From contig NZ_JARXYJ010000001.1 in NCBI RefSeq assembly GCF_029894425.1, positions 4,278,001 through 4,342,000 on the forward strand: DNA of 64,000 nt, given 5' to 3'. The number at the start of each line of letters is the position of its first letter. Positions within the stretch are counted from its first letter, which is position 1. The translations under genes and the position numbers were made by a program. Below are positions 8,499 to 23,897 of this stretch, piece by piece. The notes under the pieces are model-generated. The model did not search any database. It was not told the DNA's origin and was given only the letters and a program-made list of their open reading frames with translations. Source of the stretch: Streptomyces sp. SAI-127 (GTDB lineage Bacteria > Actinomycetota > Actinomycetes > Streptomycetales > Streptomycetaceae).

Positions 8499-9875
8499 TC
8501 ACACCGGGTCGGGTATCGGAAGCGGCCGCTTCTCGATGGCCGCCGCCATCACCTCCGGGAACAGGTCGGGAGTGCAGGCGAAGGCCGGTGCGCCCAGCGC
8601 GGCGAGCGCGGCCGCGTGCTCCCGGTCGTAGGCGGGCGCCCCCTCGTCCGACAGCGCGAGCAACGTGACGAACTGCACCCCGGACGCCTTCATCGCCGCG
8701 ACCCGCTTCAGCATCTCGTTGCGTATGCCGCCCTCGTAGAGGTCGCTGATCAGCACCATCACCGTCTCCGCGGGCCGGGTGATCTGCGACTGGCAGTACG
8801 CCAGCGCCCGGTTGATGTCCGTGCCGCCGCCGAGCTGGGTACCGAACAGCACGTCCACCGGGTCGTCGAGTTGATCGGTGAGATCGACGACCGCCGTGTC
8901 GAAGACGACGAGCCGCGTGTCGATCGACCGCATGGAGGCCAGGACCGCACCGAACACGGATGCGTAGACGACGGACGCCGCCATGGACCCCGACTGGTCG
9001 ATGCAGAGAACGACCTCCTTCTTCACCGACCGGGAGGCCCGGCCGTATCCGATCAGCCGCTCCGGCACGATCGTCCGGTACTCCGGGAGGTAGTGCTTGA
9101 GATTGGCCGAGATCGTGCGGTTCCAGTCGATGTCGTGGTGGCGCGGCCGGCTGATCCGGGCGCTGCGGTCGAGGGCACCGGTGAGCGTGGCGCGGGTGCG
9201 AGTGGCGAGCCGCTTCTCCAGGTCCTCGACGACCTTGCGCACGACGGCCCGTGCCGTCTCCTTCGTCGTCTCCGGCATCGCCTTGTTGAGCGACAGCAGC
9301 GTGCCGACCAGGTGCACGTCGGCCTCCACCGCCTCCAGCATCTCCGGCTCGAGGAGCAAGGTGGACAACCCGAGCCGGTCGATGGCGTCCCGCTGCATGA
9401 CCTGGACGACGGAGGAGGGGAAGTACGTCCGGATGTCCCCGAGCCACCGCGCCACGGACGGCGCCGAGGCCCCGAGTCCCGCCGAACGGTCCTTCCCCGC
9501 CTGTCCCTTCCCGTCCCCCCTGCCGTAGAGCGCGGTCAACGCCCCGTCCATCGCGGCATCCTGCCCATTGAGCGTGCACCCGGTCCCATCGGCCGCCTCC
9601 CCACCCAGCACAAGCCGCCAACGCCGCAACCGCTCGTCCGCGGGGGCTGTGGTGGAAGAGGCGGGGGCGGAGGAGGCCGGCGAGGAAGAGGCGGAGGAGG
9701 CAGGGGCGGAGGAGGAGGCAGTGAAGGAGGTGGCGGTGAGGGCGTTGACCGGAACCAGCGCCGGGGCCGACGCCGGGCCCTTGCTCGGATGCCGCGCTGG
9801 ATTCATCCGCGGGCGCGGGCTCCTGGCCGGATCCGTCGTCTCCGGCGTCGTCAGGTCGTTCGGCTCGGTCGTCAT
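8499..9875 (-). CDS. vWA-domain protein of a MoxR-associated system
   Basis: 458 residues from ATG at 9875. Residues 1-80 are Ser/Ala/Pro-rich linker. Residues about 85-280 are a helical region (WLGDIRTYFPSSVVQVMQRD). The C-terminal third is a von Willebrand A domain with a MIDAS motif DQSGS (293-297), a Thr loop (GGGTDINRAL) and Asp in LISDLYEGG. Proteins of this CoxE-like type partner MoxR AAA ATPases in metal-dependent assembly or remodelling. It is the last gene of the minus-strand arm, joined by an ATGA overlap to a tiny ORF. Domain assignment is secure; substrate unknown. Confidence 0.88.
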   Translation of the reverse strand: MTTEPNDLTTPETTDPARSPRPRMNPARHPSKGPASAPALVPVNALTATSFTASSSAPASSASSSPASSAPASSTTAPADERLRRWRLVLGGEAADGTGCTLNGQDAAMDGALTALYGRGDGKGQAGKDRSAGLGASAPSVARWLGDIRTYFPSSVVQVMQRDAIDRLGLSTLLLEPEMLEAVEADVHLVGTLLSLNKAMPETTKETARAVVRKVVEDLEKRLATRTRATLTGALDRSARISRPRHHDIDWNRTISANLKHYLPEYRTIVPERLIGYGRASRSVKKEVVLCIDQSGSMAASVVYASVFGAVLASMRSIDTRLVVFDTAVVDLTDQLDDPVDVLFGTQLGGGTDINRALAYCQSQITRPAETVMVLISDLYEGGIRNEMLKRVAAMKASGVQFVTLLALSDEGAPAYDREHAAALAALGAPAFACTPDLFPEVMAAAIEKRPLPIPDPV

Positions 9876-10051
9876 CCCCGTGCTCCCGTCCGGAACCGGT
9901 CCCAGAGCGGGACCACGGCCACGCCGGTCACCGGGCCGTGTTTCGCCCGGGACCCGGCCCTGTGCCCGGACGACTCTCCGCGCCCGCCCTCGACAGCGGT
10001 GGCTGTCCTGTCGCCCCCGCCTCCCGGAGTCCGCGATACCTCGGTCATCAT
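9872..10051 (-). CDS. Possible 59-residue coupled small ORF between DUF5682 and vWA genes
   Basis: It starts MMTEVSRTPGGGDRTA with an ATG that overlaps the DUF5682 stop (GGATGATG). It ends in a TGA overlapping the vWA start (GGATGACG). Both junctions are stop/start overlaps typical of translational coupling. The product is basic and Gly/Arg-rich, ending VVPLWDRFRTGARG. Third-position G+C is somewhat lower than in neighbours. It could be a real small component or just a bridging frame that keeps ribosomes moving. No homologue recognised. Confidence 0.4.
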   Translation of the reverse strand: MMTEVSRTPGGGGDRTATAVEGGRGESSGHRAGSRAKHGPVTGVAVVPLWDRFRTGARG

Positions 10052-12870
10052 CCCGCCACCCCCGCAAGGTCGTTGTCGTCGGCGTTCGCCACATCGTCGT
10101 CGTGGTCGTCGTCCAGGCCGAGCAGCAGCCGCAGCACCGGCAGCACTGCGTCCGCCCGGTCAACGTCGAGGTCGGCCCCGAAACCCGGTATACCGGCCCC
10201 CGCCCCGGCCGCAGTCCCCCGCTGCCCCGGCCCTCGCCGGACCAGTTCGCCCAGGGTCCGGCGTACTCCCGGCTCGTACGCCGAGAACGTGCGCCGCAGC
10301 AGCGGCAGCACATCGGTGAACGCCTCCGCCGGAACCCCGGTCAGCCAGGCGTCGACCAGTCCGAGCAGCCGCTCGTCGTGCACGAGAAGCATCCCGCCGC
10401 CGGACCCACCACCGACGAAACCCTCGATCCACGCGGCCGCGTCCCCCGGCGCCGTCCCCGGCGAGAGCACGAGACCCATGAGCCGCGCCGCCTCGTCCTG
10501 CGCCAGCTCCCCGTCGTCCAGCAGCAGCCGCACAGCCCGCCCCCGAATGACACCGGGCACGGTGTCCCGCAGGGACAGCACCTTGAGCACGGCCTGCCAA
10601 CGGCCACGGAGGCCGCGGTGAGCCGGAGCCGGGGCATCTCCCGTGTCGTCCGGCCCGGCCACGGCGGTGGCAGCCGGAAGATCCTGTCCCGGTACGGCCG
10701 TTGCCGGGCCCGGGCCGTCCTTCCCCCTTACGGTCGCGGACGGGCCACTCGCATCGCCGCCACCCTGCCCCGAACCCCCGGGCGGGTCCTGTCCCGGGGG
10801 CGCCACCTCGCCCAGCAGTCCCACCGCCCCATGGACGGCGTCCACATGACGCCGCATCTCCTCCGCCGCCTCCGCGTCCAGCGCGGCACAGGCCGGGGGC
10901 AGGCCGACGAAGACCCGCTCGGCGAGGCCCGCGGCGACCTCCGTCAGCGCACCGGTGTCGGTGCCGCGCACATCGCCGTAGCGCAGGGAACGGACGAGGG
11001 CCGGCAGTGCCTGGGCGAGATGGCCGACGTCCGCGTCCAGCGCGGCGCGGTCGGCGAGGATCTGCATCACCGTGGGCAGGGCGTCCGGGAGTTCGGCCAG
11101 CAGACAGCGCTCGGCGAGAGCGGTGACGTCGGCGAGTCCCGACGCGGAGACGGCGTCCGCCTCCGCCTTGGCCGTCGCGGCGGCGAGCACGGTCGTGCCC
11201 CACACCCCCGCCTCGGCGACCCGCACAGACAGCTCCGGCTCCCACCGCAGCCGCCATGTCTCCCGGAACGTGCCCGTGCTCCCCCGCGAGGCCGCCGGTT
11301 CACCCCACGCCACGCCCAGCAGCCGCAGCCGGTGCAGCAGCCTGCTGCGCTCGGCGTCGTTCTCCTTGCGCAGGTCGAGCTCCAACTCCCGCTCCAGCGC
11401 CTCCGGTTTGAGCCGAAGCCGCCGCTGGATCCGGTCGAGGTCACGCTGCAACGGCACCGCGGGCGCCGCCCGCGGCACCTCCCCCAGGACGTCCCCCACC
11501 ACCAGCCGGTCGTGCACCAGCGCCAACGGCACGTCCGAGCCCTCGCACATCACCGCCCGCACCGCGTCGGTCGTCTCGCTCAGGCCGGGCAGGGGACGGC
11601 CGCGCATCGCCGCCAGCGTCTCGGCCAGCCGTACGGCCTCGATGACGTGTGCCGAGGACACGATCCGGTCCTCGTCCCGCAGCAGCCCCGCCACCTTGGT
11701 CAGCCACCGCTCGACGGGCCGGTCCGGCGCGCCGAACAGATGCCCGTACCAGCCGGGCGAGTCGATCCCCGCGCCGTAGCCGCTGTGCCGCGAGAGCCTG
11801 CGGTACGTCCACGGCACCCACGTCATGTCCGCCTTGACCTTGGGGAGCCCCTTCAGCAGCGCCTTGTCGCCGGCGACCGTGCTCTTCCGCCGCAGCGCGG
11901 GCACGTGCCAGGCCCCGCACACCACGGCCACGTCGTCCCCGAACTCCCGCTGCGCCGCCCGCACCTGGAGCCGCATGTACGCCTCCCGCACGAGGTCCCG
12001 GTCATGTCCGCCGGTTCCGTACGTCTCCCGCAGCACCCCCATCGCTTCTTCCAGCACGGTGAACGGCTCGAAGACGTCCCCCTGCCCCGTCCCCCGGTGC
12101 TCCACGACGTCCTCCCACCACCGCTCGGGATCGTCGTATCCGGCGGCCTCGGCGAGCACACCGAGCGGATCGACACGGACGGCGGCATGAGCGGCGGGCC
12201 CGTCCTCCGCAGCGTCCTCGCCGGACGGGCCGGTGCCCTGAGCGTCCTGGGGCGCCTCGGACCGACTCGCCTCCGGCATCTCGCCGGCGGGGTCGTCCGG
12301 TCGGCCCGCCGGGCCTTCGTCCCCCTCGTCCCTCCGCCACGCCAAGGTGTGCGTCGCCGGCAGGTCGATGAAACGGGCCGGGACGTCGTGGTCCAGCGCC
12401 CAGCGGATCGCCACCCATTCCGGGGAGAACTCGGCAAGCGGCCAGAACGCCGAACGGCCGGGCTCGTCCACGGCGTGGGCGAGGAGGGCCACGGGCGGTC
12501 GCATGTCCTCCTCGGCGGCCAGCGGGATCAACGCGTCGGCCTCGGGCGGCCCCTCGATCAGTACGACCCGGGGCCGGGCCGCGTCCAACGCCGCCCGCAC
12601 GGACCGCGCCGACCCGGGCCCGTGATGCCGCACCCCGAGCAGCAACGGCCCCGCACCGGCCCCCCGGCTCCCGTGAACACCGACGCCGGTCACTCCCCCG
12701 CTCCTGGACACACCGCCTCCGTCCATTCCCTCTGCAGCCGACGCGCGGGAGTCCCTCCCTCCGTCGCGCGCACCCCCGCTTCCCGGGCCGCCGGCACCAG
12801 ACGTCCCCGCACTCCCGAACCCCCCGGAGCCGCCAGTCCTCCCGCTCCCGACCTCACCTACGCCCGTCAC
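10048..12870 (-). CDS. DUF5682 family protein of the MoxR/vWA island
   Basis: About 940 residues. I chose GTG at 12870 because GGAGGGGAGGGGG lies just upstream. The first ~70 residues are Gly/Ser-rich. The conserved domain begins at PLLLGVRHHGPGSARSVRAA, followed by VLIEGPPEADALIPLA, AHAVDEPGRSAFWPLAEFSPEW and VVCGAWHVPALR, matching the DUF5682 pattern found beside MoxR and vWA genes. The C-terminal half is helical, with an acidic tail (LDDDHDDDVANADDNDL). It has no transmembrane segment. The long stretch around residues 150-220 is low complexity. Its biochemical role is unknown. Confidence 0.85.
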   Translation of the reverse strand: MTGVGEVGSGRTGGSGGFGSAGTSGAGGPGSGGARDGGRDSRASAAEGMDGGGVSRSGGVTGVGVHGSRGAGAGPLLLGVRHHGPGSARSVRAALDAARPRVVLIEGPPEADALIPLAAEEDMRPPVALLAHAVDEPGRSAFWPLAEFSPEWVAIRWALDHDVPARFIDLPATHTLAWRRDEGDEGPAGRPDDPAGEMPEASRSEAPQDAQGTGPSGEDAAEDGPAAHAAVRVDPLGVLAEAAGYDDPERWWEDVVEHRGTGQGDVFEPFTVLEEAMGVLRETYGTGGHDRDLVREAYMRLQVRAAQREFGDDVAVVCGAWHVPALRRKSTVAGDKALLKGLPKVKADMTWVPWTYRRLSRHSGYGAGIDSPGWYGHLFGAPDRPVERWLTKVAGLLRDEDRIVSSAHVIEAVRLAETLAAMRGRPLPGLSETTDAVRAVMCEGSDVPLALVHDRLVVGDVLGEVPRAAPAVPLQRDLDRIQRRLRLKPEALERELELDLRKENDAERSRLLHRLRLLGVAWGEPAASRGSTGTFRETWRLRWEPELSVRVAEAGVWGTTVLAAATAKAEADAVSASGLADVTALAERCLLAELPDALPTVMQILADRAALDADVGHLAQALPALVRSLRYGDVRGTDTGALTEVAAGLAERVFVGLPPACAALDAEAAEEMRRHVDAVHGAVGLLGEVAPPGQDPPGGSGQGGGDASGPSATVRGKDGPGPATAVPGQDLPAATAVAGPDDTGDAPAPAHRGLRGRWQAVLKVLSLRDTVPGVIRGRAVRLLLDDGELAQDEAARLMGLVLSPGTAPGDAAAWIEGFVGGGSGGGMLLVHDERLLGLVDAWLTGVPAEAFTDVLPLLRRTFSAYEPGVRRTLGELVRRGPGQRGTAAGAGAGIPGFGADLDVDRADAVLPVLRLLLGLDDDHDDDVANADDNDLAGVAG

Positions 12871-13192
12871 ACCGTCCCCCTCCCCTCCGGGGCCACTTGG
12901 AGTCGTCCTCGACGACCGTCCCGATCCCGCCCTTGCCGCCGTCCCGCTCAAGCCCTGCCACACCCGTCCCCCTTGCCTCCGCGACCCCGGCCATCCGAAT
13001 CGAAGCCCTCGCGGCCCTCCCCGCAGTCCGAACCGAGCCCCTGCGACCGTCCCCGGCCCTCCGCATCAAAGCCCCGCCCCCGTCCCCGCCACCCCGTACG
13101 CCCACGACCGACGAGTCACCCCCCGCCCACATGCCCCCGCGCCACCCGCCTGGATTCCCGCCCGTGCGGCCCATCCCCAGGTCTTCGTTCAC
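12854..13192 (-). CDS. Possible Gly/Arg-rich 112-residue ORF between MoxR and DUF5682
   Basis: GTG at 13192 overlaps the MoxR stop (GCGTGA), and the stop at 12854 overlaps the DUF5682 start region. The product starts VNEDLGMGRTGGNPGGW and is almost wholly Gly, Arg, Ala and Asp. The arrangement suggests coupling, but composition gives no family signal. It may be noncoding spacer or an N-terminal extension misread. Confidence 0.3.
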   Translation of the reverse strand: MNEDLGMGRTGGNPGGWRGGMWAGGDSSVVGVRGGGDGGGALMRRAGDGRRGSVRTAGRAARASIRMAGVAEARGTGVAGLERDGGKGGIGTVVEDDSKWPRRGGGRCDGRR

Positions 13193-14319
13193 GCGCTCAC
13201 CTCCCGGCAAGCCCGGTAGAAGTCCTTCCAGCCGTCCCGCTCGCGGACGACCGCCTCCAGGTACTCCTGCCAGATGACCCGGTCGGCCGCCGGATCGCGG
13301 ACGACGGCGCCGAGGATGCCCGCGGCGACGTCCCCGGCCCGCAGGACGCCGTCGCCGAAGTGGGCGGCGAGGGCGAGGCCGTTGGTGACGACGGAGATGA
13401 CCTCGGCCGTCGACAGCGTGCCGCTGGGCGACTTGAGCTTCGTACGGCCGTCGGACGTCATCCCGTCGCGCAGCTCGCGGAAGACCGTCACGACACGACG
13501 GATCTCCGCGACGCCGTCGGGCGCGGCCGGCAGATCGAGCGAGCGGCCGATCTGGTCGACGCGGCGCGAGACGATGTCGACCTCGGCCTCGACGCTCTCC
13601 GGCAGCGGCAGCACGACCGTGTTGAAACGGCGGCGCAGAGCGCTGGAGAGGTCGTTGACCCCACGGTCGCGGTCGTTGGCCGTGGCGATGAGGTTGAAGC
13701 CGCGGACCGCCTGCACCTCCTGGCCCAGCTCCGGTATCGGCAGCGTCTTCTCGGACAGGATGGTGATCAGCGAGTCCTGCACGTCGGCCGGGATACGGGT
13801 CAGCTCCTCGACCCGGGCCGTCATCCCCTCCGCCATGGCCCGCATCACGGGGCTGGACACGAGGGCGTCGCGGCTCGGGCCGTTGGCGAGCAGCTGGGCG
13901 TAGTTCCAGCCGTAGCGGATCGCCTCCTCCGGGGTGCCCGCGGTGCCCTGCACGAGCAGCGTCGAGTCGCCGCTGACCGCCGCGGCCAGGTGCTCGGAGA
14001 CCCAGGTCTTCGCGGTGCCGGGCACGCCCAGCAGGAGCAGGGCGCGGTCGGTGGCGAGGGTGGTGACGGCGACCTCGACGAGCCGGCGCGGCCCCACGTA
14101 CTTCGGAGTGATCACCGTGCCGTCCGGCAGGGTGCCGCCGAGCAGGTACGTCGCCACCGCCCACGGCGACAGCTTCCAGCGGACCGGGCGCGGGCGGTCG
14201 TCCTGAGCGGCCAGCGCGGCGAGTTCACCGGCGAAGGCGTCCTCGGCATGCGGCCGCAACGCCTCGTCCGGCTCCCCCTGCTTCGGTTCCACGGACGTCG
14301 GTTCAACAGACACAGTCAT
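13189..14319 (-). CDS. MoxR-family AAA+ ATPase
   Basis: 376 residues from ATG at 14319 (GGAGGGGGCC upstream). The Walker A motif GVPGTAKT is at residues 98-105. A MoxR-like insert (GTAGTPEEAIRYGWNYAQLL) and sensor-type segment FNLIATANDRDRGVNDL follow, then an arginine-finger region ALRRRFN. MoxR ATPases act as chaperones that remodel or insert cofactors in partner complexes with vWA proteins. It heads the minus-strand arm (MoxR, DUF5682, vWA) and is divergent from the SWIM gene. A PafBC-like promoter motif at 14363-14385 would give a leader of about 37 bases. Confidence 0.93.
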   Translation of the reverse strand: MTVSVEPTSVEPKQGEPDEALRPHAEDAFAGELAALAAQDDRPRPVRWKLSPWAVATYLLGGTLPDGTVITPKYVGPRRLVEVAVTTLATDRALLLLGVPGTAKTWVSEHLAAAVSGDSTLLVQGTAGTPEEAIRYGWNYAQLLANGPSRDALVSSPVMRAMAEGMTARVEELTRIPADVQDSLITILSEKTLPIPELGQEVQAVRGFNLIATANDRDRGVNDLSSALRRRFNTVVLPLPESVEAEVDIVSRRVDQIGRSLDLPAAPDGVAEIRRVVTVFRELRDGMTSDGRTKLKSPSGTLSTAEVISVVTNGLALAAHFGDGVLRAGDVAAGILGAVVRDPAADRVIWQEYLEAVVRERDGWKDFYRACREVSA

Positions 14320-14362
14320 GGCTGAGGCCCCCTCCAGCTCGGCCGGTTCGGATCTGTCACCA

Positions 14363-14385
14363 ACCGTGCACCACGCCACTGACAA
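14363..14385 (-). promoter_or_regulatory. RecA-NDp/PafBC-type promoter for the MoxR arm
   Basis: On the minus strand TTGTCAGTG (14385-14377), eight bases, then CACGGT (14368-14363). The consensus for PafBC-dependent DNA-damage promoters is TTGTCRGTG-N8-TANNNT. The upstream element is perfect and the -10 has one mismatch. Confidence 0.55.
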
Positions 14386-14444
14386 TGCGATCCGACCTGC
14401 GGAAACGTGCTCACGAGGGTCGGCTCGGGGCCGATTGTCAGTGG
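14376..14444. repeat. 11-bp inverted repeat spanning the divergent promoters
   Basis: ccactgacaat (14376-14386) and attgtcagtgg (14434-14444) are perfect inverted copies separated by 47 bp. Each arm contains the TTGTCAGTG element, so the repeat reflects two divergent promoters of the same class. Confidence 0.8.
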
Positions 14445-14457
14445 GGGGATCTACCTT
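14435..14457 (+). promoter_or_regulatory. RecA-NDp/PafBC-type promoter for the SWIM arm
   Basis: TTGTCAGTG (14435-14443), eight bases, TACCTT (14452-14457): a full match to TTGTCRGTG-N8-TANNNT. Initiation about 7 bases later would fall on or next to the ATG at 14465, predicting a leaderless transcript. Confidence 0.68.
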
Positions 14458-14464
14458 CGATGTC

Positions 14465-15820
14465 ATGACTCAGCAGGGGGTGCGCTGGACGGCGGATCAG
14501 GTGCTGGCACTGGCGCCTGACGCCTCGTCACGCAAAGCGGGAAGCAAACTCGGCGCGGCCGGGCCATGGTCCGAGGCGGGGAGTTCCGACGAGGGGACGG
14601 TGTGGGGACTGTGCAAGGGCAGTGGCAGCAAGCCGTATCAGACGGTCATCGACATCGCGGACGCGGCAGGGCCCGCGTACAAGTGCAGTTGCCCGAGCCG
14701 CAAGTTCCCGTGCAAGCACGCGCTCGGGCTGCTGCTGCTCTGGGCGGGCGGGGAGGGAGCGGTGCCGCCGGGGCCGACGCCGGACTGGGCGGACCAGTGG
14801 ATAGAGGGGAGAAGGCAGCGCGCGCAGGAGAAGCGGGAGGCGGGCGCCGGAGGCGCAGCCGCCGGGTCCGGTGATCCGGAGGCGGCGCGGCGCAGGGCGG
14901 AGCGCCGGGCCGTGCGGATCACGGCGGGTGCGACGGAGCTGGAGCAGCGGCTGGCGGACCTGCTGCGCGGCGGCCTGGCGGGGGCGGAGCAGGCGGGGTA
15001 CGGCATGTGGGAGGAGACGGCGGCCCGCATGGTCGACGCGCAGGCACCGGGACTCGCCGCCCGGGTGCGGGAGTTGGGCGCTATCCCCTCGTCCGGTCCG
15101 GGCTGGCCGGTGCGGCTGCTGGAGGAGTGCGCCCTCATCCACCTCCTCGACCAGGGCTGGCTGCGCCGCGAGCGGCTGCCGGACGGTCTCGCGTCGACGG
15201 TGCGTTCCCGGATCGGCCTGCCCGCCTCGGCGGACGGCCCCGCGATACGGGACCGCTGGCTGGTCCTCGCCCAGTACGACACGGCGGACGCCCGTCTGAC
15301 GACCCGCCGGATCTGGCTGCACGGCACGGACTCGAGCCGTACGGCACTGCTCCTCTCCTACGGCGCCGCCGGCCGCGCCCCCGAACTGGCGCTGCCGGTG
15401 GGGCTGGAGCTGGAGGCGGAGGTGTCCGCCTATCCCGGTACCGGTCAGTTGCGGGCAGCGCTCGGCGAGCAGTTCGCACCGCCCTCCCCCACGGCGACCC
15501 GCCCACCGGGAGTGACGACCGAGCAGGCGGCCGCCCGCTACGGCGAGGCACTGCGGGACGACCCGTGGCTGGATTCCGTCCCCGTCACCCTGGACCGGGT
15601 GATACCGGCCCCGGACGGTGACTCCTGGCAACTGGCGGACACCGAGGGCGACTCGGCCCTGCCGCTCACCGCCTCCGCCCGTTCCCGCCCGGGCCTGTGG
15701 CGTCTGGTCGCGCTCTCGGGCGGCGCCCCGGTCAAGGTCTTCGGCGAGTGCGGCCACCGCGGCTTCACCCCGCTGACGGCCTGGCCGGAGGGGGCGGGCG
15801 AGGCGGTGCCGCTGTGCTGA
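14465..15820 (+). CDS. SWIM zinc-finger protein of the MoxR/vWA island
   Basis: 451 residues from ATG at 14465 (MTQQGVRWTADQVLALAPDA). The SWIM zinc ligands are C74, C76, C83 and H85 in YKCSCPSRKFPCKHALGLLL. Following the finger is an Arg/Glu-rich helix, then alpha/beta segments with no recognised fold (WLVLAQYDTADARLTTRRIW). SWIM domains bind DNA or protein and occur in recombination and ubiquitin-ligase factors. It is first in the plus-strand arm, 41 bp ahead of the DUF5691 gene. Its promoter resembles PafBC-dependent promoters, and the predicted mRNA is leaderless. Confidence 0.88.
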   Translation: MTQQGVRWTADQVLALAPDASSRKAGSKLGAAGPWSEAGSSDEGTVWGLCKGSGSKPYQTVIDIADAAGPAYKCSCPSRKFPCKHALGLLLLWAGGEGAVPPGPTPDWADQWIEGRRQRAQEKREAGAGGAAAGSGDPEAARRRAERRAVRITAGATELEQRLADLLRGGLAGAEQAGYGMWEETAARMVDAQAPGLAARVRELGAIPSSGPGWPVRLLEECALIHLLDQGWLRRERLPDGLASTVRSRIGLPASADGPAIRDRWLVLAQYDTADARLTTRRIWLHGTDSSRTALLLSYGAAGRAPELALPVGLELEAEVSAYPGTGQLRAALGEQFAPPSPTATRPPGVTTEQAAARYGEALRDDPWLDSVPVTLDRVIPAPDGDSWQLADTEGDSALPLTASARSRPGLWRLVALSGGAPVKVFGECGHRGFTPLTAWPEGAGEAVPLC

Positions 15821-15861
15821 ACGGAACTGACCGAGCCCCCGACCGGACGGAAAGGAACCCC

Positions 15862-17490
15862 GTGGACAAGATCGCCGCTCCCGCCCCGGACGCCTGGGAG
15901 GAGCTCGTCACCTCGGCGCTGCTCGGCACCGCACGCCGTACGCCGCCCGGCGTCGCGCCCGGTCCCGAGGCACCGGTGGCGTTGCTTGACGCGGCGGCCG
16001 TGGAGACCGTACGGCGGCGGGCCGGGCTGCGGCCCACGCGCGCGTCCCAGCGGCCGCAGCCGGCGCCCGAGGACACGCGCCCTCCGCTGCCCGCGGCGGC
16101 GGCCCGCAGACTCGCGATGCTGCTCGCCGACCGGCCGGGCACGGGCGGCGGCGGCCGCAGGGGTACGGCGCCGGACCTGATGGAGCTGCTGCCGCAGTGG
16201 CTCGCGACGGCGAACGCCCGCGGTTACGCGGCGCCTCCGCAGGTGCTGCCCGCCCTGCTGGACGCGGCCCGGGGGCGTACGGATCTGCGGCCGGCGGCGC
16301 TGGCGTTCGCGGGTTCGCGTGCCACCTGGCTCGCCCGGCTGAACCCGGACTGGCGGTTCGCCCTGCGAGCGACACCCGGCGGCGGAGCAGCCCTGCCGTC
16401 GCCGCAGGACACCGCGGGCGTCCGACTGCTGTGGGAGGAAGGGCTGTTCGCCGAGCGGGTGGCCCTCCTTTCCGCGATACGCGCCCGGGAGCCCGCCACG
16501 GCACGCGAGTTGCTCGCGACGACCTGGGCGACCGAGCGGGCCGAGGACCGGCTGATGTTCCTCGACTCGTTGCGGACCGGCCTGGAGGCGGACGACGAGC
16601 CGTTCCTTGAGCAGGCACTGGCCGACCGGAGCCGCAACGTACGGGCCACGGCCGCGGAGTTGCTGTCGGCGCTGCCGGGATCGGCGCTGGCGGCGCGGAT
16701 GGCGGTCAGGGCCGGGGCGTGCGTGGCCGTCGACCACACCCAGGACAGGCCGACGGTCGTCGTCGAGGCGCCGCACGAGTGCGACTCGGGCATGGAGCGC
16801 GACGGCGTCGTAGCGAAGGCGCCCTCGGGGCGGGGGGAGCGTTCGTGGTGGTTCGGGCAGTTGGTGGAGGCGGCGCCGCTGGTGGTGTGGCCGGGGCGGC
16901 TCGGTGGGCGGACGCCCGAGGAGATCGTGGCGCTGCCGGTGGCGGACGACTGGCGGAACGAACTGCATGCGGCATGGTGCCGGGCTGCCGTACGGCAGCG
17001 CGACGCCGGGTGGGCTCGGGCGCTGCTCGGGACACCCGCGGCGCCGGAGGCCGGGGGCCCGGGGGCGGTGTCACTGGCGGAGCGGGCCAGGCTGCTGAGC
17101 ACGTTGGACTCCGCCGAACGGGCCGAGTGGGTCGCGGCGTTCATCGCGACCCACGGATTGTCCGAGGCGTTTCAGCTGCTCGGGGTGTGTGAGGTGCCGT
17201 GGGCCGCGCCGCTCGGGCGGGCGGTGGTCGACGCGCTCAACATCGCACGGGACGCGGGGAGTTATCCGTGGAGTTTCAGCGGGGTGATGGGGCTGGCGGA
17301 GCGGTGTCTCGATCCGGCCGAGGCGGGGCGGCTGGAGGGGCTGATGGCGGTGCCGGACGAGGGCGAGGACGCGAGTCCCGGGGCGGGGGGCTACTGGGCG
17401 GAGGCGTTCCAGCGACTGGTGACGACCTTGCGGCTGCGGGCGACGATGGCGGACGAGCTGGAGGCGGCGGAGGAGCGGGGGATGGCGTAG
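15862..17490 (+). CDS. DUF5691 family protein of the MoxR/vWA island
   Basis: 542 residues from GTG at 15862, chosen for GGAAAGGAAC upstream; an overlapping GTG at 15814 is possible. It begins WEELVTSALLGTARRTPPGV, a signature of DUF5691. A helical repeat-like region (LLPQWLATANARGYAAPPQV, then FLEQALADRSRNVRATAAEL) suggests a HEAT-type scaffold. A C-terminal helical domain ends MADELEAAEERGMA. It is always, to my knowledge, near SWIM and MoxR/vWA genes, which suggests one machine. Enzymatic residues are not evident. Confidence 0.83.
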   Translation: MDKIAAPAPDAWEELVTSALLGTARRTPPGVAPGPEAPVALLDAAAVETVRRRAGLRPTRASQRPQPAPEDTRPPLPAAAARRLAMLLADRPGTGGGGRRGTAPDLMELLPQWLATANARGYAAPPQVLPALLDAARGRTDLRPAALAFAGSRATWLARLNPDWRFALRATPGGGAALPSPQDTAGVRLLWEEGLFAERVALLSAIRAREPATARELLATTWATERAEDRLMFLDSLRTGLEADDEPFLEQALADRSRNVRATAAELLSALPGSALAARMAVRAGACVAVDHTQDRPTVVVEAPHECDSGMERDGVVAKAPSGRGERSWWFGQLVEAAPLVVWPGRLGGRTPEEIVALPVADDWRNELHAAWCRAAVRQRDAGWARALLGTPAAPEAGGPGAVSLAERARLLSTLDSAERAEWVAAFIATHGLSEAFQLLGVCEVPWAAPLGRAVVDALNIARDAGSYPWSFSGVMGLAERCLDPAEAGRLEGLMAVPDEGEDASPGAGGYWAEAFQRLVTTLRLRATMADELEAAEERGMA

Positions 17491-21360: not shown

Positions 21361-23865
21361 TTACAGCTTCTCGACCGGCGCGTACCTCAGCAGCAGCCGC
21401 TTCGGCTTCGCTTCCCCGAAGTCGATCGTCGCCTCGGCGTTCGCCCCCGTGCCCTTCACCCCGACCACCGTGCCGAGCCCGAACTGGTCGTGGGTGACAC
21501 GGTCGCCGACGGCCAGTGACACCACCGGCTTCTCCGAGGTCCTGCGCGTCGCGAAGCCGGACGCGCCCGAAGCCGAGGAGCGGGAACGGGAGGACGACAG
21601 CGAGGCGGCGACACCTGAGACCGGTCCCGCGGGAGCGGCTGTCGGACCCGTGCGCTTCCAGTCCACGTGCTGCGCCGGGATTTCCTCCAGGAAGCGGGAG
21701 GGCGGGTTGTACGACGGCTGCCCCCACGCGCTGCGCAGGGCGGACCGGGTCAGATACAGCCGCTCACGCGCACGCGTGATGCCGACGTAGGCCAGCCGCC
21801 GCTCCTCCTCCAGTTCCTTGGTCTGGCCGAGAGCGCGCATGTGCGGGAAGACGCCGTCCTCCATGCCGGTGAGGAAGACGACCGGGAACTCCAGGCCCTT
21901 GGCGGTGTGCAGGGTCATCAGGGTGATGACGCCGGAGCCGTCCTCGTCCTCGTCGGGGATCTGGTCGGAGTCGGCGACCAGGGCGACCCGCTCGAGGAAC
22001 GCCGCGAGCCCGACCGGGGCCGGCGCCTCGCCTTCCGCGGGCTCCCCGGCCGCACCGGACTCCTGCTCGAACTCCAGGGCCACGGCGGCGAGTTCCTGGA
22101 GGTTCTCGATGCGGGTCTCGTCCTGGGGGTCGGTGGAGGCCTGCAACTCGGCGAGATAACCGGTGCGTTCGAGGACCGCCTCCAGGACGGTCGCGGGGCC
22201 CGCGCCGGACTCGACGATGGTCCGGAGCTCCTCCATCAGCACGTTGAACCGCTTCACGGCGTTGGTGGAGCGCGCGGCCATGCCGTACGCCTCGTCGACG
22301 CGCTTGAGGGCCTGCGGGAAGCTGATCTTCTCGCGCTGGGAGAGGGCGTCGATCATCGCCTCGGCACGGTCGCCGATGCCGCGCTTGGGGACGTTGAGGA
22401 TCCGGCGCAGCGGCACGGAGTCCTCCGGGTTGGCGAGGACGCGCAGGTAGGCCAGGACGTCCCGGACCTCCTTGCGCTCGTAGAAGCGGACGCCGCCGAC
22501 GACCTTGTAGGGCAGGCCGACGCGGATGAAGACCTCTTCGAAGACGCGGGACTGGGCGTTCGTACGGTAGAAGACGGCCACGTCGCCGGCCTTCGCGTCG
22601 CCCGCGTCGGTGAGACGGTCTATCTCGTCGGCGACGAACTGCGCCTCGTCGTGCTCGGTGTCGGCGACATAGCCGGTGATGCGCGCGCCCGCGCCCGCGT
22701 TGGTCCACAGGTTCTTGGGGCGGCGGGACTCGTTGCGCTCGATGACGGCGTTGGCGGCGGTGAGGATCGTCTGCGTGGAGCGGTAGTTCTGCTCCAGGAG
22801 GATCGTCGTCGCGTCCGGGTAGTCCTCCTCGAACTGGAGGATGTTGCGGATCGTCGCGCCGCGGAAGGCGTAGATCGACTGGTCGGCGTCGCCCACGACG
22901 CAGAGCTCGGCGGGCGGCAGGTCGTACTCGCCCGGCGGTACGTCGACGGGGTGCTCGCCGGTACCGACCAGCTCGCGCACGAGCGCGTACTGCGCGTGGT
23001 TGGTGTCCTGGTACTCGTCGACGAGGACGTGCCGGAAGCGGCGGCGGTAGTGCTCGGCGACATCGGGGAACGCCCGGAGGAGGTTGACCGTGGTCATGAT
23101 CAGGTCGTCGAAGTCGAGGGCGTTCGCCTCGCGCAGCCGCGACTGGTACATGGCGTAGGCCTGGGCGAGGGTCTTCTCGAAGCCGTCGGCGGCCTGGGCG
23201 GCGAAGTCCTCCTCGTCGATCAGCTCGTTCTTCAGGTTGCTGATCTTGGCGCTGAAGGACTTCGGCGGGAACCGCTTGGGGTCGAGGTCCAGGTCGCGGC
23301 AGACCAGGGCCATCAGCCGCTTGGAGTCGGCGGCGTCGTAGATCGAGAAGGAGGAGGTGAACCCGAGCTTCTTCGACTCCCTCCGCAGGATCCGCACGCA
23401 CGCGCTGTGGAAGGTCATCACCCACATCGCGTTCGCGCGCGGCCCGACGAGGTGCTCGACGCGCTCCTTCATCTCGCCCGCGGCCTTGTTGGTGAAGGTG
23501 ATCGCGAGGATCTGGCCCGGGTGGACGTTGCGCTCGCCGAGGAGATGGGCGATGCGGTGGGTGAGTACCCGGGTCTTGCCGGAGCCGGCGCCGGCCACGA
23601 TGAGCAGCGGGGTGCCGGAGTGCACCACGGCCGCGCGCTGGTTCTCGTTCAGCCCGTCCAGGAGCGCGGCCGGGTCCACCACCGGGCGGGGGGCGCCGTC
23701 GCGGTAGTACGCGTCCCGGTCCGGGGGCACGTCGAACTTCCCACCGAACAGATCGTCCGGAACGGGTTCCGGCACGTGCTCGTCCTCGGGCGGCGGCGGT
23801 TCTTCCCCATGGGCCCGAGGGGCTTGGAGGTCCGCCAGGAAGCTGTCGTCAAAGAGGCTGCTCAT
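21361..23865 (-). CDS. pcrA: UvrD/PcrA-type 3'-5' DNA helicase
   Basis: 834 residues. Superfamily 1A helicase motifs are present: Q motif LNENQRAAV, motif I AGAGSGKT (residues 91-98), motif II DEYQDTN, motif III GDADQSIYAFRGA, motif IV region LEQNYRST, and motif V/VI LMTLHTAKGLEFPVVFLTG and YVGITRARERLYL. The C-terminal tail ends in the RNA-polymerase/repair-binding-like module (VGDRVTHDQFGLGTVVGVKG). It unwinds DNA in nucleotide excision and mismatch-like repair. A PafBC-type promoter lies just upstream, and the predicted transcript begins within a few bases of ATG. Confidence 0.95.
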   Translation of the reverse strand: MSSLFDDSFLADLQAPRAHGEEPPPPEDEHVPEPVPDDLFGGKFDVPPDRDAYYRDGAPRPVVDPAALLDGLNENQRAAVVHSGTPLLIVAGAGSGKTRVLTHRIAHLLGERNVHPGQILAITFTNKAAGEMKERVEHLVGPRANAMWVMTFHSACVRILRRESKKLGFTSSFSIYDAADSKRLMALVCRDLDLDPKRFPPKSFSAKISNLKNELIDEEDFAAQAADGFEKTLAQAYAMYQSRLREANALDFDDLIMTTVNLLRAFPDVAEHYRRRFRHVLVDEYQDTNHAQYALVRELVGTGEHPVDVPPGEYDLPPAELCVVGDADQSIYAFRGATIRNILQFEEDYPDATTILLEQNYRSTQTILTAANAVIERNESRRPKNLWTNAGAGARITGYVADTEHDEAQFVADEIDRLTDAGDAKAGDVAVFYRTNAQSRVFEEVFIRVGLPYKVVGGVRFYERKEVRDVLAYLRVLANPEDSVPLRRILNVPKRGIGDRAEAMIDALSQREKISFPQALKRVDEAYGMAARSTNAVKRFNVLMEELRTIVESGAGPATVLEAVLERTGYLAELQASTDPQDETRIENLQELAAVALEFEQESGAAGEPAEGEAPAPVGLAAFLERVALVADSDQIPDEDEDGSGVITLMTLHTAKGLEFPVVFLTGMEDGVFPHMRALGQTKELEEERRLAYVGITRARERLYLTRSALRSAWGQPSYNPPSRFLEEIPAQHVDWKRTGPTAAPAGPVSGVAASLSSSRSRSSASGASGFATRRTSEKPVVSLAVGDRVTHDQFGLGTVVGVKGTGANAEATIDFGEAKPKRLLLRYAPVEKL

Positions 23866-23874
23866 CGCTCTCCG

Positions 23875-23897
23875 AGTCTAGGGTGCCCCACTGACAC
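23875..23897 (-). promoter_or_regulatory. RecA-NDp/PafBC-like promoter for pcrA
   Basis: On the minus strand GTGTCAGTG (23897-23889), eight bases, TAGACT (23880-23875). It matches TTGTCRGTG-N8-TANNNT except for the first base. Initiation about 7 bases on falls near 23868, just before the ATG at 23865. Confidence 0.6.

Follow-up and report, generated by a model that had tools for sequence, protein, structure and literature searches.

The gap between the two divergent arms of a MoxR/SWIM gene island in a Streptomyces genome appears to hold a composite bidirectional DNA-damage promoter, in which activation would depend on the face of the helix and which would derive from a one-operon ancestor; we give this reading a probability of roughly 0.7. 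Co-control of both arms through RecA-NDp/PafBC-type sites is the part of it that is well supported by the sequence. The island lies in a 64-kb stretch of DNA, which was analysed as a whole and is here called the window, and it comprises the following genes:

14465..15820, plus strand: SWIM zinc-finger protein, predicted to be leaderless (PF04434, E 7e-6).
15697..17490, plus strand: DUF5691 protein (PF18944, E 3e-176; true start uncertain, Pfam match from residue 69 onwards).
13189..14319, minus strand: MoxR-type AAA+ ATPase (PF07728, E 1e-36; the MoxR label comes from the earlier note and from a bpMoxR match below the cut-off).
10048..12963, minus strand: DUF5682 protein (PF18934, E 6e-302; start uncertain).
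8499..9899, minus strand: vWA (CoxE-like) protein (PF05762, E 1e-62; start uncertain).

The natural guess, given what is generally known of these domains, is that the island encodes an AAA+/vWA remodeller which, together with a SWIM zinc-finger partner, acts after DNA damage. A tie to the DNA damage response would give the first handle on the function of this uncharacterised AAA+/vWA/SWIM island.

Between the start codons of MoxR (ATG 14319, minus strand) and SWIM (ATG 14465, plus strand) there is a gap of 145 bp with two mirrored RecA-NDp-type sites. The features of the gap are:

14435..14457, plus strand: RecA-NDp/PafBC-type promoter of the SWIM arm, an exact match (-26 element TTGTCAGTG, spacer GGGGGATC, -10 element TACCTT).
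14363..14385, minus strand: RecA-NDp-like promoter of the MoxR arm (-26 element TTGTCAGTG, spacer GCGTGGTG ending in GTGGTG, CA-type -10 element CACGGT).
14376..14386, minus strand: left arm of an 11-bp inverted repeat, ATTGTCAGTGG.
14434..14444, plus strand: right arm of the same repeat, ATTGTCAGTGG.
14394..14402, either strand: accessory element, GACCTGCGG on the plus and CCGCAGGTC on the minus strand, 8 bp upstream of the MoxR-arm TTGTC.

The consensus used in the earlier note is the published one, tTGTCRgtg - 8 nt - TannnT (PMC5656591, in the part of the text available). A pattern scan reproduced what the note had claimed for the gap, namely an exact TTGTCRGTG-N8-TANNNT at 14435-14457, a partner with a single mismatch (C for T at the first -10 base) facing MoxR, and an 11-bp inverted repeat, ATTGTCAGTGG being common to both sites. 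The -26 element TTGTCRGTG is exact in both arms. TANNNT follows 8 nt downstream in the plus arm (TACCTT), whereas the minus arm has CACGGT and misses the published -10, and the MoxR-arm site is therefore named RecA-NDp-like. With up to two mismatches allowed, the window contains five matches on both strands against 1.49 expected from shuffles, and the only exact one is the plus site. The 9-mer TTGTCAGTG occurs once per strand in the window, starting at 14435 and at 14377, where 0.054 occurrences per strand would be expected, and a mirrored pair of it within 120 bp has a probability of about 5e-6 from base composition. For the CA-type form of the motif with at most one mismatch, there are two matches in the window, both of them the paired sites, against 0.05 expected. 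The -10 of the plus site ends 7 nt 5' of the SWIM ATG at 14465, and thus the SWIM transcript would be leaderless, while the MoxR leader would be about 37 nt long with a start near 14356.

The SOS box has the consensus TCGAACNNNNGTTCGA. Between 14320 and 14464 there is no match to it with up to three mismatches; the nearest one (14291-14306, three mismatches) is located inside MoxR, and the window has 37 such matches against 27 by chance. LexA/SOS control was ruled out by this absence of an SOS-box-like site from the intergenic region.

The earlier note had made its proposal depend on conservation of the motif in orthologous intergenic regions, and the motif was found to be retained there. SWIM orthologues were detected in 140 of 150 Streptomyces genomes and in 30 of 225 genomes from elsewhere in the class. 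In the 130 of those 140 Streptomyces genomes whose pieces had a reliable start, the SWIM-arm site was present in every divergence with at most one mismatch (exact in 123), and the MoxR-arm site with at most two mismatches in 119. The 11 divergences without the latter may reflect 700-bp pieces falling short, since 14 relatives have their sites 575-765 bp apart. Among the other 10 genomes, mirrored pairs were found in six more (among them G052, G118, G136 and G073), and G027, G053, G072 and G132 were left out for the plus site. In 80 named Streptomyces loci, picked by MoxR similarity, the minus site upstream of MoxR (at most two mismatches) and the plus site (at most one) were both present in 80/80. 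These counts are not independent, given related genomes and recombination, and the 185 loci used for spacing below correspond to 176 distinct segments.

The motif is also widespread in the genome itself. In its 10.7 Mb there are 144 sites with at most one mismatch, 43 of them exact, against 12 for the reversed pattern. The surroundings were examined for 42 of the 43 exact sites (all except C3:332860), a downstream gene was called in 38 of them, and all 38 genes were scanned with Pfam. Exact sites precede recA, uvrA, uvrB, ruvC, ogt (O6-methylguanine methyltransferase) and mgsA (MgsA/RarA), as well as genes for a UvrD-type helicase, a RecD2-type protein and DEAD-box helicases, and the motif is thus common to DNA repair genes of the same genome. 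For other downstream genes, either no repair role is evident or Pfam gave no match (ABC, MFS, PhoH, FolB, ribosomal S6, SUKH, DUF4253, YjbR and more). Half of the genes (19/38) start 5-10 nt past the -10, which is the leaderless layout seen at SWIM. A candidate regulator is encoded as well: a tandem of WYL genes, followed by frames that resemble tatA and tatC, fits pafB-pafC, and there are 14 WYL matches in the genome. The names PafB, PafC, TatA and TatC are assumed by us from the neighbourhood and the sequence.

Across the genus, exact TTGTCAGTG-N8-TANNNT was found in 101/101 Streptomyces genomes with 3-40 sites each; the reversed pattern was found in none of 96 of these genomes and once in each of the other five. 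Published statements on Streptomyces disagree, and this enrichment is relevant to them. A first search pointed to a lack of conservation of the Mycobacterium smegmatis PafBC motif in S. venezuelae (PMC9380542), whereas RecA-NDp promoters have been reported in Streptomyces (PMC5087735, PMC9411070), all three papers being considered here from partial text.

Two single arrangements were observed among the other sites. In the window, a one-mismatch RecA-NDp site (GTGTCAGTG-N8-TAGACT, 23875-23897, minus strand) lies 9 nt before a PcrA/UvrD helicase gene (21361-23865, minus strand), and similar sites are found at about the matching distance in 15 of 20 named loci, compared by location only. Elsewhere in the genome, uvrB and ogt, each with an exact RecA-NDp site, are about 2 kb apart (G000:C1:7824800-7830000, L250).

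The mismatch of the MoxR arm looks like a conserved CA-type -10 rather than decay. C occupies the first -10 base in 118/119 of the genus loci and in 80/80 of the named ones, so the site is not decaying, and the spacer ends in GTGGTG in 88/119 and 66/80, respectively. By a hand count among the matches listed, with the MoxR-arm site included, TTGTCAGTG sites in which only the first -10 base is off have C in 14 cases, G in two and A in two. Thirteen further CA-type sites of the genome were examined, and eight of them lie 6-7 nt before a start codon; one of the eight precedes NAD DNA ligase. A gene for a DNA polymerase III delta-type subunit follows another CA-type site, with 42 nt between the site and the start codon. 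Of the 10 downstream genes (out of 13) scanned with Pfam, eight are without a repair role. Taken together, the conserved C, the conserved spacer end and the recurrence of CA-type sites make the mismatch look like a variant under selection.

In its conserved form, GCAGGTC-N7/8-TTGTCAGTG, the accessory element is found at a fixed offset, 7-8 bp upstream of one TTGTC. With one mismatch allowed, 154 of 171 close pairs have GCAGGTC on a single arm (MoxR arm 118, SWIM arm 36), 17 have it on neither at the fixed offset and none has it on both; for the 162 distinct close segments the numbers are 110 (MoxR arm), 35 (SWIM arm) and 17 (neither). Eleven of the 36 SWIM-arm cases also show an inverted copy when scored from the MoxR arm, probably a second reading of the one copy. 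Of the 14 pairs more than 330 bp apart, 12 have GCAGGTC on the SWIM arm, 13 have it in the opposite orientation close to the MoxR arm, and 11 have both. A putative co-regulator serving both promoters would fit the presence of a single element in close pairs and of two in split ones, and it would explain why phase matters.

The 9-mer of the accessory element was found within 45 bp of 3/41 other exact sites of the genome with at most one mismatch (15/41 with at most two), and the former count ruled it out as a general part of RecA-NDp promoters. As the mark of a genome-wide regulon, the 15-bp palindrome with up to three mismatches gave 847 matches against 552 for the reversed form and was rejected as too unspecific. 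By eye, one CA-type site elsewhere (L348:106, G000:C1:5625955) has GCAGGTC 7 bp upstream, at the offset of the island, and in one Streptomyces locus a small lipoprotein-like gene pointing towards MoxR is located between the split promoters (L117:1614-2078).

The distance between the two sites, taken between their 5' T, was determined for 185 loci (113 from the genus sample and 72 named). None of these spacings falls in 20-25, 29-36, 41-47, 52-60 or 63-71 bp. With four pairs added, all 175 spacings of 20-71 bp (108 genus, 67 named) fall in 26-28, 37-40, 48-51 or 61-62 bp. Parsimony on a MoxR tree of 70 loci (the 80 named loci minus eight without a close pair by the regular expression used and minus two over 130 bp) gave 28 spacing changes, eight of 1-2 bp and 20 larger ones. 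The larger changes measure 11-13, 23-24, 46, 48 or 60 bp, none 3-10 bp, and none of the 20 deviates by more than 1.8 bp from a multiple of 11.7 bp (p 4e-11 in a binomial comparison with an even spread, with the period fitted to the same spacings as those tested and with events that may not be independent). In periodicity the 22 distinct spacings below 130 bp exceed every one of 5000 random sets, whereas 168/5000 sets do as well when the spacings are reduced to band means. Spacings of 82 and 93 are out of phase, and 14 loci have sites 575-765 bp apart, so close phasing is not essential everywhere. The banded spacing of close sites, in steps of about one helix turn, nevertheless points to cooperation between the two switches. 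No support was obtained for such phasing at mirrored sites in general: among the matches listed, two mirrored TTGTCAGTG pairs elsewhere (G101:C1:8247772-8247818 and G125:C3:64785-64844) have spacings of 30 and 43, outside the bands.

Outside Streptomyces the genes are arranged differently. In a class-wide search with SWIM, 51/246 genomes matched, 30 of them outside the genus; from 16 of the latter, chosen mostly among the better matches, long stretches were compared. The order SWIM-DUF5691-MoxR-DUF5682-vWA is on one strand in 15/16; in the remaining stretch DUF5691 was not detected and the genes are still on one strand. Directly before a leaderless SWIM start, NTGTC-N12-TANNNT is present in 12/16 (eight of the 12 with TTGTC), with a background for this promoter test of about 0.001 per window of the test. 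Of the four that fail, two (L319, L323) have CA-type versions by eye. In 290-bp pieces around the MoxR starts outside the genus TTGTC-N12-TANNNT is absent. With the one-strand order and the promoter before SWIM only, the genes seem to have formed one operon behind a single damage-type promoter, and this ancestral operon seems to have been split later into two arms, each with a promoter. The gene order is observed, and the direction of the change is the one that we infer from it.

A mechanism along the following lines is proposed. PafBC activated by ssDNA would redirect the housekeeping RNA polymerase to TTGTCAGTG of each arm, as the motif and the gene content suggest. On the SWIM arm, the TA-type -10 would give a leaderless transcript; on the MoxR arm, where the CA-type -10 is constrained and the leader has a ribosome site, there would be co-induction, perhaps of different strength. 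Matching helix faces would be occupied by the complexes of both arms, or by each complex and a factor bound to GCAGGTC, which may account for the observed spacing pattern: if matching faces are required, close pairs would tolerate only spacings that differ by about one turn. The SWIM-DUF5691-MoxR-DUF5682-vWA operon would have been split in Streptomyces, and a promoter on each arm would preserve the co-induction of the AAA+/vWA machine and its SWIM partner. A stronger version, tentative and somewhat short of even odds, is that the gap forms one regulatory machine, with two PafBC-adapted polymerases, or one GCAGGTC factor serving both, back to back on a fixed helical face. We know of no earlier DNA-damage promoter with sigma-adapted complexes cooperating across a divergent pair; if this version is true, the present one would be the first, and GCAGGTC would mark a second regulator. 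The recurrent one-turn steps of spacing can be viewed as a natural experiment on the cooperation of adapted polymerases at divergent promoters.

The same gap could also hold two independent RecA-NDp/PafBC promoters back to back, both damage-responsive, with the bands reflecting a few ancestral insertions spread by descent or recombination instead of cooperation. The spacings are indeed common to related genomes, the pairs 575-765 bp apart retain both motifs, the 11.7-bp period was fitted post hoc and the band means alone give a weak signal. We consider this rather unlikely, because the 20 larger changes on the MoxR tree are all of 11-13, 23-24, 46, 48 or 60 bp, with 1-2 bp changes (8) and no 3-10 bp ones besides them, and close pairs have the accessory element on a single arm, with 11/14 split pairs having it by both. 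That only the SWIM arm has a PafBC promoter, the MoxR site being a relic or the site of another regulator with a CA-type -10 non-functional for PafBC, is unlikely. Such a view would agree with the failure of CACGGT to match the published -10 and with a MoxR-arm spacer conserved as if it bore another signal; against it, CA-type sites recur in the genome (14 C against two G and two A among the matches listed), 8/13 of those examined lie 6-7 nt before a start codon, and the C is kept in 118/119 with the site not decaying.

The identity of the regulator is a separate matter. Use of the motif by a regulator other than PafBC, for example ClgR, is very unlikely in our judgement: binding of ClgR to the P1 promoter in mycobacteria is cited in PMC5656591, and the 14 WYL matches mean that other WYL activators may exist, whereas PMC8223512 names PafBC as the RecA-NDp regulator (both papers in partial text) and the WYL tandem of this genome adjoins tatA-tatC-like genes. 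Chance resemblance without function can practically be dismissed, as it is contradicted by the plus site in 130/130 divergences and by the excess of matches in the window (five against 1.49, about 5e-6 for the 9-mer pair and two against 0.05 for the CA-type form).

The mycobacterial PafBC-activated RecA-NDp (P1) promoters are alike in the -26 element, the 8-nt spacer and the -10 of the plus arm (PMC5656591, PMC8223512; partial texts). Further likeness to the mycobacterial setting is seen in the repair genes downstream of the motif and the pafBC-like genes of this genome. Unlike there, the sites form a mirrored pair in one intergenic region with one CA-type -10, banded spacing and an accessory element. 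Closer in origin is the promoter of SCO6735, a RecA-NDp gene of S. coelicolor, which is of the same promoter type and from the same genus and for which 5-fold induction by UV was measured (PMC5087735, PMC9411070, the 5-fold value from the former); it differs in being a single promoter before a macrodomain gene, and no mirrored partner is described in the available parts of these papers. A precedent for face-of-helix-dependent co-activation of divergent promoters is ThnR (PMC4834489, partial text), where PB and PC are likewise two close divergent activated promoters cooperating by helical face. They differ in that a LysR-type activator and a DNA loop are backed by experiment there, whereas the island promoters are assigned to the PafBC type by comparison.

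As for the island itself, a known anti-phage defence system was ruled out, since the PADLOC models matched 0/5 of its proteins, and an NCBIfam search gave matches below the cut-offs only. In the E. coli control genome DUF5682 is present, as in the island, and the yehLMPQ cluster is presumably its homologue; to our knowledge, E. coli is without PafBC. The MoxR-vWA ternary conflict systems have a MoxR-type ATPase gene with a vWA gene in common with the island (PMC7159879, partial text); the island differs from them in adding DUF5682, SWIM and DUF5691 and in having no PADLOC match. A third component of the ternary type (VMAP, iSTAND or FtsH) was sought, and Pfam showed only DUF5682, SWIM and DUF5691, with bpMoxR below the cut-off. 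The main text of PMC7159879 does not contain the terms SWIM, DUF5682 or YehL. In the partial text of open-licence papers there is no statement that the MoxR/DUF5682/SWIM island is damage-induced, and no paper on DUF5682 or DUF5691 was found in the open-licence literature. An open frame of 1585 codons runs antisense to the MoxR arm (9568-14325, plus strand) and is most likely a by-product of the high G+C content.
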